Shown piece after piece: positions 10,725-18,095 of a stretch of DNA of 64,000 nt (position 1 is the stretch's first letter; each line of letters starts with the position of its first letter). Position numbers and translations under genes: made by a program. Origin of the DNA: Leeuwenhoekiella aestuarii (lineage in GTDB: Bacteria > Bacteroidota > Bacteroidia > Flavobacteriales > Flavobacteriaceae); assembly GCF_004104055.1 (NCBI RefSeq), contig NZ_QOVJ01000002.1:62001-126000 (forward strand). Direction: 5' to 3'. Below the pieces are notes generated by a model that saw nothing but the letters and a program-made list of their open reading frames with translations, made no database searches and was not told the DNA's origin.

Positions 10725-13700
10725 GTGACTACAAATACTACTTTTAAAAAAGCTACTCACGTTGTTGTAGGGATAGGTGCAAGTGCTGGAGGTCTACAAG
10801 CTCTTAACGACTTTTTTGATAATGTACCTACAGCATCATTGTATAGTTATATTGTGGTTCAGCATCTTTCGCCTGATCACAAAAGCTTGATGGCAGAGCT
10901 TCTGGCTAAAAACACAAAAATCCCAATTGAGGTTATCAAAGACGGTGGAGAAATTAAGGCCAATTGTATCTATCTGATTCCACCTACACACAATCTGGTT
11001 ATTGAAGAAGGGAAATTCAAGTTGCTCGAAAAGCCTAAGGACAAATCCTTAAACCTCCCTATTGATATGTTTTTTGAATCTTTAGCAAATCATGCTAAAG
11101 AGCATTGCGCTGGTATTATTCTTAGCGGAACAGGTAGCGATGGTTCTAGAGGAATACGAGCTATCAAAGAAAAAGGTGGTGTTGTTATGGTGCAGCAACC
11201 TGAGCAGGCAAAATTTGATGGGATGCCTCGTAATTCTATTAAAACTGGTCTTGCTGATTTTATTGTACCTGTTGAACGTATAAGTGACGAACTATCAAAC
11301 TATTTTGAGGCTCAGAGTAGCATTGGTTTTGATGCCGAGTTGTTTCAATATGATGAAAAACTCTTAACCGATATTTTAACGGTTTTAAAGAACAATACAG
11401 CATTAGATTTTAGTTTATATAAAAGACCCACGTTACTACGAAGAATTGGCAGGAGAGTTCGCGTACTAAAACTAGACTCACTAGAAGCTTATTTTAATTA
11501 TTTAAAAAATAATACTGAAGAAGTACAAACCCTCTATAACGAATTTTTAATAGGAGTTACCAAGTTTTTTAGAGATTTTAAAGTCTGGGAAATATTAGAA
11601 AATGACATTATCCCAGAAATCGTTAGTGATAAGGAAGATGGCGCAATTATTAAAATTTGGGATGTAGGTTGTAGTACCGGAGAAGAGCCTTATTCTTTGG
11701 GTATTTTATTTCTTGATGAAATCAAAAAGCAGGGTAAAGATATATCGCTTAAGATATTTGCTACAGACATCTCTCAGGATCATCTGGATATAGCCAGCAA
11801 AGGTTTGTATTCAGAAAACGTGTTAAGTGATCTCTCTAGTGATCGTATTAATACTTATTTCAGAAAAAGCGGAGATAACTTTATCGTAAAAGAAAATATT
11901 AGAAAGTGCATCATATTTTCTAATCACGACATAACAAATGATCCTCCGTTTAAGAATATGGATATGGTTATGTGTCGTAATCTACTCATCTATCTTCAAA
12001 ATGAAGTGCAATCAAAAGTTATACACTTACTGCATTACGCACTTATACAAGATGGTATTCTTACGTTGGGATCAAGCGAGTCTCTTGGGGTTCATAAAAA
12101 TTCATTTGAGGAAATAAACAGAAAGTGGAACGTTTATCGAAATATAGAAAATTCAGAGCGTTTAAAAACCGAAATACTTAGCTCAACAGCAGAACGTCAA
12201 TCATTAAAACGGAATACAATAGGAACAAAGAAAGGATCAGTGCAAAGTATAAGTAATACCAGTCGTTTGAAGGAAGAGATTAGTAAAGCGATTATGCAGC
12301 AATATGGAGCTGCAAGTGTTTATATAGATGAGAACTTTCATATTTTGGAGGCATTGGGTGCTTTCAAAAAATATGTTCAGTTTCCTGAAGAAGGTTTTAC
12401 TACAAATCTTATAGATATGCTTTCAGAAGAGCTTTCTGAGGCGATTAAAAACACGGTAAACAAAGCACGACGCAGAAAGTCTCAAATTCTTTATAAAGAT
12501 GTTGAGATTTTTGATGAGAATAATGAATTGAAAAAGCGGGTTGATGTTCTGGTAAAACCGGTTAAGAGCATTAATTTAGAAGGTGATTTTCACTATATAA
12601 TTACGCTCATTGAGATTGATAAGAATGAAAATAAATCTGTTATAATAGAGCGTGCAGATATTCATAAATCTGCTCAGGAACGTATAAAAGATCTTGAAGA
12701 CGAACTTAAAGAAACCCAATACGAACTGAGCAATGCTCTTGAAGAAGCAGAAACGAGTAATGAAGAACTGCAAGCATCTAATGAAGAGTTATTAGCTTCT
12801 AATGAAGAATTGCAGAGTACTAATGAAGAGCTGCAAAGCGTAAATGAAGAGTTGCATACTGTAAACGCAGAGCATATAGAAAAGATGGAAGATCTTGCCA
12901 TGCTCAACGCAGATATGGATAATCTGCTTGATAGTACGCGTATTGGTACCGTCTTTCTAGATAAGAATCTGATCATTAGAAAGTTTACGCCAGCAATTAG
13001 AGAGCATTTTCACTTAGTAAAACAAGATATAGGGCGCTCTATAGAAAATTTTGTTGCAAACTTCGGGATTCGTAAGCGTACGACAATTGTGGATAACTCT
13101 AAAAAAGTTATGAATACCGGTCAGGTTTTTGAAAAACGAATTAAGAGTAAATCCGGGCGTTATTTCCTGCAACGCATATCGCCATTTCATACCGGTCAGG
13201 ATAGTATAGAGGGTGTTGTTATAACCTTTATAGATATTCATAAAGTAGAACAATCACAGGCACGTCTACGTAAGAGTGAAGAGAAGTTTAAGGCTTTTTA
13301 TGAAGATGACCCGGTTATGCACGTAACGATTAATTCACATACTGGTTTGATATCTGAATGTAATGGTCTGTTTGTAGAAACACTTGGTTTTGAGTCTAAA
13401 ACTGAAGTAGTGGGTAAATCTATATTTGAATTTTATCCAAAGCAGACAAAAGTTAAAGCAATCGCTTTGCTTGATGAACTAGAGAAAACAGGTAGTATTT
13501 CTAATGAAGAATTAAAATTAGAATGTATTAATGGTGATCGGTTAGATGTTCTTTTTAATGCAGAATTGATGCTTAATGCTGCGGGGGACACCAATCAATG
13601 GCGTTGTACCTTAATGGAAATTACAGATCTCAAAATAGCTCAACAGGAATTGCAGAAACAAAAAGATGATCTGGAGCGTATAAATACCGATTTAGAACAG

Positions 13701-14348
13701 TTTGTTTCTATATGTTCCCACGATTTACAAGAGCCACTTTCTACAATTAGATTCAGTAGTGATTTTCTTTCTAAAAAATTCAGTGATGAAATGTCTGAGA
13801 AAGGAAAAGAATATCTGGGCTACATTCACGAAGCTTCAGGAAGAATGGCAGAGCAAATTAAAGCTTTGCTGGAGCATAGTAGAATTGGCGAAGATCTCAA
13901 GAAGACAAAAGTAGATGTCACTGAACTTATTGAGATTGTAAAATACGATTTAAACAGAAGTATCAGAGAAGCAAATGCTACGGTGAGTGTGGGTAAAATG
14001 CCTGTGTTAATGGCTTATGAAACTGAATTGCGTTTATTGTTTCAGAATTTGATAAGTAACGCTTTGAAATACCGTCAAAAAGGTGTGAAGCCTAGTATAC
14101 GCATTTCTTCTTTTGGGGATGAAGAGTATCAGACCTTTGCAATTGCAGATAATGGTATTGGCATCAAAGAAGATGATCTTGAAGCGATTTTTAAGATCTT
14201 TGGTCGTGTTCCTACGGAAGAAAAATACGAAGGTACTGGTGTAGGCCTGGCGCACTGTAAAAAGATTGTAAAATTACACGAAGGTACGATCTGGGTAGAT
14301 TCACAATTTGGTCAGGGCAGTACATTCTATTTTAAAATTAAGCGCTAG
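10725..14348 (+). CDS. CheB-CheR-PAS hybrid histidine kinase
   Basis: A 1207-residue cytoplasmic hybrid without membrane segments, starting at GTG. Order: CheB methylesterase domain (about 10-190) with Ser20 in GASAGG, His47 in VQHLSPDH and Asp139 in GTGSDG, and no receiver domain before it; CheR methyltransferase (about 205-480) with the SAM loop [13 protein letters not shown] and CRNLLIYL; a coiled coil with five NEELxxx heptads (679-713); two PAS domains (about 745-960); HisKA with His999 in CSHDLQEP; and HATPase with [15 protein letters not shown] and GTGVGLAHC. It is the first gene of the light cluster, 1 bp before the phytochrome gene. Such fusions are known in many bacteria, but their methylation target is generally unknown. 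Confidence 0.93.
   Translation: [1207 protein letters not shown]
12759..12863 (+). repeat. Five in-frame 21-bp repeats encoding NEELxxx heptads
   Basis: Within the kinase hybrid, the 21-base unit beginning aatgaagaa/g-yt-g recurs five times and encodes [28 protein letters not shown] and NEELHTV (residues 679-713). The 7-residue period gives a dimeric coiled coil between the CheR and PAS parts. This signalling helix is typical of CheBR-PAS kinases. Copy number could vary by slippage. Confidence 0.85.
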
Positions 14349-17581: not shown

Positions 17582-18095
17582 GCAGGGTAATCTGGCTAAA
17601 TATATATTAGATCATAGCATTACGACAGCACAGTATAAAGCCTTGCTAAAGCAAAATTATAAGGCTTATGCTATACTTAATAGTCTCCTAAAACATAATG
17701 AGAAAAACATACCGGCAAACTTGCAGCATTTTGCAGATGACAAGAAGGTAAAAGATCTTGAGTTAGACTTGAGCCAGATAGCAGCAGTAACTCCAGAAAT
17801 TACTTTTGATGCTTCTAAAATACTGTCTCCTGCTGAAATTTTAGGGATGTTGTATGTCGTAGAAGGTTCTATGATGGGTGGTTTGCTCATTAGAAAAAAC
17901 TTAGAATCTTGTTCAAATTTAGATGCTGTTCAAAAGCATCATTTTTTTGGTAAAAATCCTCCTGAAGTACTTAATAGGTGGAAGTCTTTTACCGCGGCGG
18001 TTGAGTCTCAAGACTATTCAGAAACTGAAATGGATGCAGCTGTAAAGGGGGCAAATTATGCGTTTTTGATATTTAAGAATAGCTACGAAGTCTAA
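17529..18095 (+). CDS. Heme oxygenase (biliverdin-producing)
   Basis: A 188-residue helical heme oxygenase that opens heme to biliverdin, CO and Fe(II). The N-terminus LKKQTANLHQETE contains His14, the expected proximal heme ligand, and the distal helix is seen as YVVEGSMMGGLLI. It is short but complete for a bacterial BphO/HemO type. The ATG at 17529 lies inside the preceding regulator gene, giving a 53-bp overlap, and the HO helix 1 needs this start. Its stop overlaps the stop of the convergent methyltransferase gene. Being in the phytochrome cluster, it most likely supplies biliverdin to BphP. Confidence 0.9.
   Translation: MILKHLKKQTANLHQETEQGNLAKYILDHSITTAQYKALLKQNYKAYAILNSLLKHNEKNIPANLQHFADDKKVKDLELDLSQIAAVTPEITFDASKILSPAEILGMLYVVEGSMMGGLLIRKNLESCSNLDAVQKHHFFGKNPPEVLNRWKSFTAAVESQDYSETEMDAAVKGANYAFLIFKNSYEV

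Follow-up and report, generated by a model that had tools for sequence, protein, structure and literature searches.

A flavobacterial red/far-red operon whose CheB-CheR-fused kinase may adapt by methylating its own linker

What do a CheB methylesterase and a CheR methyltransferase do in a light-sensing gene cluster of a bacterium in which we find no chemoreceptor? The question is raised by positions 10725-18095 of a 64,000-nucleotide stretch of Leeuwenhoekiella aestuarii DNA (contig NZ_QOVJ01000002.1; the whole stretch is hereafter the window), where a protein fusing CheB and CheR to a histidine kinase (the CheBR-kinase) is followed by a bacteriophytochrome, two response regulators (RR1 and RR2) and a heme oxygenase. 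Profile searches of the genome gave one match each for PHY, CheB, CheR and heme oxygenase, all inside the cluster, and none for the methyl-accepting chemotaxis protein (MCP, PF00015). The CheBR-kinase itself contains a near-invariant array of Glu-Glu heptads; neither this array nor the lack of a chemoreceptor had figured in an earlier note on this DNA. We propose, at roughly even odds (about 0.5), that the cluster is a red/far-red two-component operon in which the second kinase methylates its own linker and adapts in this way. Support is good for the operon part of this proposal, while self-methylation is suggested by sequence patterns.

A red/far-red operon with its own chromophore gene

The cluster consists of five open reading frames (ORFs) on one strand:

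10725..14348, + strand: CheBR-kinase, a CheB-CheR-PAS-PAS-histidine kinase fusion of 1207 residues (GTG start; Pfam; the genome's sole CheB and CheR)
14350..16560, + strand: bacteriophytochrome histidine kinase, PAS-GAF-PHY-HisKA-HATPase, with Cys18 (Pfam; the genome's sole PHY)
16572..16976, + strand: RR1, receiver-only response regulator, accessory (TTG start; Pfam Response_reg)
16985..17581, + strand: RR2, receiver with a long C-terminal helix, the core receiver (Pfam Response_reg; neighbourhood counts; model)
17529..18095, + strand: heme oxygenase, biliverdin-forming (Pfam PF01126; the genome's sole one)

Gaps of 1 bp (CheBR-kinase to phytochrome), 11 bp (phytochrome to RR1) and 8 bp (RR1 to RR2) separate the first four genes, and RR2 and the heme oxygenase overlap by 53 bp; coordinates, ORFs and Pfam domains thus agree with the tight same-strand arrangement described in the earlier note. 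From this spacing we infer co-transcription of all five genes.

The phytochrome has a PAS_2-GAF-PHY photosensory core followed by HisKA-HATPase, and matches solved bacteriophytochromes with E values down to 3e-116. The chromophore motifs claimed for it, Cys18, PASDIP, CHH and PRKSF, are all present in its sequence, which therefore combines the domain core with the biliverdin-binding Cys, DIP, His pair and PRxSF of a predicted bacteriophytochrome (BphP). The last gene of the cluster scores above the Pfam cut-off for heme oxygenase, and VVEGSMMGG fits the EGSxxGG motif, bearing out the idea of a red/far-red cluster that carries its own chromophore gene. HisKA and HATPase domains are found on both kinases, which are thus complete, and the Pfam domains of the cluster include no DNA-binding output, as the earlier note had it.

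The CheBR-kinase linker carries an array of Glu-Glu heptads

The first kinase is made up of the following parts:

10767..11294, + strand: CheB methylesterase domain, residues 15-190 (Pfam PF01339, E=3e-55)
11370..12128, + strand: CheR_N and CheR methyltransferase domains, residues 216-468 (Pfam PF03705, PF01739)
12660..12935, + strand: single 92-residue helix, residues 646-737, joining the CheR half to PAS_10 (AlphaFold2 model, linker pLDDT about 55-80)
12741..12866, + strand: heptad array of six Glu-Glu pairs (residues 673, 680, 687, 694, 701 and 708), proposed methyl-accepting site (conservation, spacing)
12915..13622, + strand: PAS_10 and PAS domains, residues 731-838 and 855-966 (Pfam)
13692..14342, + strand: HisKA and HATPase_c, with the His in SHDLQEP (Pfam; H-box kept in cluster relatives)

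Both enzymes have intact catalytic motifs that are conserved in relatives: the CheB triad S20/H47/D139 (S-H-D), and the GCSTGEE (S-adenosylmethionine-binding) and CRN motifs of CheR, whose domains find CheR structures as their closest folds, best among them Bacillus subtilis CheR (5ftw). Unlike chemotaxis CheB, the CheB domain begins at residue 15 and has no Response_reg domain ahead of it; the order CheB-CheR-coiled coil-PAS in one polypeptide is that of the CheB-CheR fusion kinases.

The helix lies between a PAS-like region that follows CheR and PAS_10, and carries [39 protein letters not shown], in which Glu-Glu pairs recur exactly every seven residues (NEELQST heptads). Across 39 fusions below 80% identity, residues 676-710 are the most conserved segment of the protein, with 85% mean pairwise identity compared with 63% for the next best segment (around the CheB Asp) and 41% for the whole protein, and pairs 2 to 6 hardly vary at either Glu. 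Relatives match 36-39 of the 39 linker residues, and 36-67% of the identical residues differ in codon; synonymous changes are as frequent here as in the rest of the CheBR-kinase, so selection on the linker is at the protein level, and conservation of the DNA itself is ruled out.

The array also follows the fusion from genome to genome. In a sample of 397 Flavobacteriaceae genomes, 66 have a CheB match and 65 match a 68-residue linker query; 63 of the latter are the full set of genomes bearing a CheB-CheR fusion (63/63). Weak matches (E about 1e-5 to 1e-4) in two genomes without CheB make up the remainder, and the three CheB genomes that lack a linker match comprise two with stand-alone CheB and one sub-threshold CheB match. 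MCP scores above the cut-off in two of the 397 genomes, neither with CheB, and in none of the 63 fusion-bearing genomes; these CheB-CheR proteins therefore lack their usual substrate, which makes the heptad array in the same protein, on sequence grounds, the simplest candidate to replace it.

Wider sampling gave a similar picture. Among 198 genomes across the phylum Bacteroidota, CheB is present in 67 of the 71 that are linker-positive, the four exceptions having E above 1e-4, and 49 of the 53 strong linker matches lie inside an ORF with a listed CheB match. The other four are two complete CheB-CheR fusions (L240, L241), a fusion truncated by the end of its contig (L242) and a PAS-domain ORF (L239:2665-4392) that adjoins a CheB-CheR fusion and bears the same [22 protein letters not shown] without CheB or CheR; this last is possibly a substrate in trans. 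That the linker is found in CheB-CheR proteins only holds for near-full-length matches within Flavobacteriaceae, and fails in the wider phylum, where PAS kinases without CheB or CheR have weaker heptads. Ten plasmid-borne fusions were sampled outside the phylum (Cyanobacteria, Alpha- and Betaproteobacteria and Deinococcus), and Glu heptads occupy the same place in all ten.

Methylation site or structural coiled coil?

Chemoreceptor methylation sites follow the consensus [ASTG][ASTG]xx[EQ][EQ]xx[ASTG][ASTG], in which the second Glu or Gln, at heptad position c, receives the methyl group (PMC6829392). The array takes the register of that rule when written N(a)E(b)E(c)L(d), and its seven-residue repeat matches positions 296/303/310 of the MCP Tsr; Glu/Gln pairs seven apart at heptad positions b and c are thus common to both. 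The CheBR-kinase differs from Tsr in having Asn at a and no receptor, HAMP or MCP signalling domain, and in combining the enzymes, the candidate site and a HisKA kinase in one polypeptide.

Several observations weigh against methylation of the array. Each pair has only two to three of the four small consensus positions filled, whereas methylated pairs of Tsr have three to four. Gln is the usual mimic of methyl-Glu; none of the 39 sequences has it in place of Glu at pairs 2-6. A model of the CheB-CheR-linker fragment reached a low pTM (0.41) and so gives no evidence that CheR contacts the helix. The fusion in L029 retains the heptads though the catalytic His is missing from its CheB and the locus yielded no second CheB, a counterexample to a rule that a broken CheB entails loss of the heptads. 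Finally, some PAS kinases of the phylum without CheB or CheR (L243, L245, L246, L247) bear two or three weaker Glu heptads; they come from genomes with CheB but without MCP.

In a different account, the array is a structural signalling coiled coil fixed by dimer and kinase mechanics, and CheR and CheB either modify another target, for example the phytochrome, one of the receivers or some other protein, or act mainly as a sensor by binding S-adenosylmethionine. The array runs straight into PAS_10, Asn at a with Leu at d would fit a parallel dimer, and both the L029 fusion and the weaker heptads of the PAS kinases would be explained. However, surface residues of coiled coils normally vary, and the exposed Glu at b and c are as fixed as the core; nor would a structural role account readily for near-full-length linker matches being restricted, across the 397 genomes, to CheB-CheR ORFs. 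We consider this account less likely than methylation of the array, though it is the most serious of the alternatives.

In a Rhizobium etli fusion (L224:198-5394) the CheB domain has lost Ser and His, and an intact stand-alone CheB gene lies directly upstream, which counts in favour of methylation; stand-alone CheB genes also directly precede CheB-CheR fusions in several flavobacteria (G189:C10, G336:C1 and G393:C6; L229, L230 and L231).

The CheBR-kinase gene is conserved beside the light genes

Gene order was read in 80 loci found with the phytochrome and in 48 stretches from the sampled Flavobacteriaceae genomes. Throughout the family the genes keep the order CheBR-kinase, phytochrome, (RR1), RR2, heme oxygenase, so that a chance origin of the cluster is excluded and the conserved order looked for in the earlier note is borne out. 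A PHY match occurs in 27 of the 397 genomes; CheB is present in 24 of these 27, compared with 42 of the remaining 370 genomes. PHY and CheB are adjacent in 20 (one of which, G313, has a very divergent PHY protein). The earlier view of CheB-CheR as unusual for a light pathway thus does not hold in this family.

The flavobacterial phytochrome clade comprises 40 loci, in 34 of which the CheBR-kinase gene adjoins that of the phytochrome. RR2 is found in all 34 of these clusters, the heme oxygenase in 32 and RR1 in 13. The six loci of the clade without CheBR have RR1 in every case and RR2 in one; five of them are a single Aquimarina group, and hence not independent. The cluster-type proteins make up a single, fully supported clade of 36 in the CheBR tree; 31 of them adjoin a phytochrome, and the other five, nested within the clade, are solitary. 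The phytochrome and CheBR trees recover broadly the same groups.

The five solitary proteins bear on the possibility that the CheBR-kinase senses an unrelated cue, is merely co-transcribed with the light genes, and converges on RR2 or not at all. Five sampled genomes do have an orthologous CheBR-kinase without a phytochrome, and its PAS domains could bind another ligand; yet because these five nest within the phytochrome-linked clade they are best read as later losses of the light genes, and RR2 accompanies CheBR in every CheBR-bearing cluster. Furthermore, four members of the clade (L013-L015 and L029) keep the phytochrome and RR2 beside a distantly related CheBR, divergently transcribed in three of the four. 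Replacement of the usual CheBR by a distant one of the same domain architecture argues that a CheB-CheR-kinase function is wanted at the light locus, and makes an unrelated cue improbable.

A conventional role for the CheB-CheR part, in adapting chemoreceptors during chemotaxis or phototaxis, is rejected as highly improbable: sequence and fold both mark the domains as genuine CheB and CheR, but this genome has no MCP match and its fusion-bearing relatives have none above the cut-off, and for want of that substrate the cluster is not classed as chemotaxis.

RR2 is the core receiver

The two receiver-only regulators listed in the earlier note are both present, but they differ in standing: RR2 is core, whereas RR1, absent from 21 of the 34 CheBR-bearing clusters, is accessory. 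RR2 is predicted to have a long helix at residues 109-181, and its closest solved relative is the LvrB receiver. It is likely the shared core receiver of both kinases, and the long predicted C-terminal helix together with the absence of an output domain suggests that it would act through protein contact. RR1 looks like an Rcp1-type accessory partner of the phytochrome. A strict tie of RR2 to the CheBR-kinase is weakened by L183, which has RR2 without CheBR, and by the five solitary CheBR-kinases, which lack RR2.

Taken together, the proposed pathway would run as follows. Heme oxygenase would supply biliverdin, which the phytochrome would bind at Cys18, so that light would switch the phytochrome kinase. 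This kinase and the CheBR-kinase would both signal to RR2, with RR1 as an extra receiver of the phytochrome. CheR would add methyl groups to the Glu pairs of the coiled coil that the CheBR-kinase itself forms as a dimer, and CheB would remove them, either in cis or between the two subunits. How far the pairs are methylated would determine the output of the fused kinase; the result may be slow adaptation or gain control of the light pathway without chemotaxis proteins.

In Aquimarina relatives without CheBR (L080:2065-8900; also L009 and L030), other kinases, receiver-only proteins and AraC-type regulators lie next to the phytochrome, with a BLUF blue-light protein also nearby in L080; these neighbours are a possible route to gene regulation.

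Gene starts and neighbouring sequence

The ORF tool's phytochrome start, a TTG at 14308, was judged unlikely and 14350 is preferred; the heme oxygenase start is backed by Leeuwenhoekiella orthologues beginning MIL[KDN]HLK. The closest relative of the source genome is L. polynyae, whose phytochrome is 94% identical. Promoter-like sites were fewer than in shuffled sequences, terminators were not in excess, and tRNA and Rfam scans gave nothing useful. Upstream of the cluster, positions 20-9217 of the window hold heavy-metal/RND efflux genes (AcrB-type, OEP, ArsP permease and HMA/MauE), together with a likely HlyD/CusB-type adaptor.

Relation to known systems

Phytochrome-heme oxygenase operons and CheB-CheR fusions are already known kinds. 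BphO-BphP-BphR of Deinococcus is a bacteriophytochrome-heme oxygenase-response regulator operon; it resembles the cluster in having receiver-only regulators, a heme oxygenase of its own and a phytochrome kinase whose Cys is close to the N terminus. In contrast, the flavobacterial operon is led by a second, CheB-CheR-fused kinase, and its core receiver is the second one, with the long helix. RR1 resembles the small Rcp1-type receiver beside the phytochrome kinase in the cyanobacterial Cph1-Rcp1 pair, and cyanobacterial phytochromes among the relatives found also adjoin an RR1-like gene; in flavobacterial clusters, however, RR1 is often lost and RR2 kept. With LvrA/LvrB of Leptospira the similarity is to the LvrB receiver, closest to that of RR2 in the Protein Data Bank, and the histidine kinase region of the phytochrome also scores the LvrA model; LvrB runs on into a kinase, whereas RR2 ends in a helix.

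Annotated cheBR fusions (CheB or CheR family methyltransferase) of Cyanobacteria, Proteobacteria and Deinococcus have the same CheB-CheR-linker-PAS order and Glu heptads; the flavobacterial one differs in being tied to a phytochrome operon, and the literature we found mentions such fusions without an assigned function. In that literature, open-access papers with subscription papers mostly outside it, we found no description of the flavobacterial operon or of the heptad motif, which leaves priority unsettled, and no substrate described for CheB-CheR fusions of bacteria without chemoreceptors.

Implications

Many bacteria that lack chemoreceptors possess CheB-CheR fusions, and an array in the same protein makes the question of their substrate directly testable. 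We tentatively extend the proposal to several phyla, in which CheB-CheR fusions may carry their own methyl-accepting coiled coil as a self-contained adaptation module that tunes the fused kinase without a chemoreceptor; flavobacteria would have joined one such module to a phytochrome, giving a light sensor with a reversible methylation memory. If this is true, reversible receptor methylation extends beyond chemotaxis, as a portable means of adaptation that ordinary kinases can use, here serving red light in marine bacteria; if it is confirmed, a red-light sensor could adapt itself.

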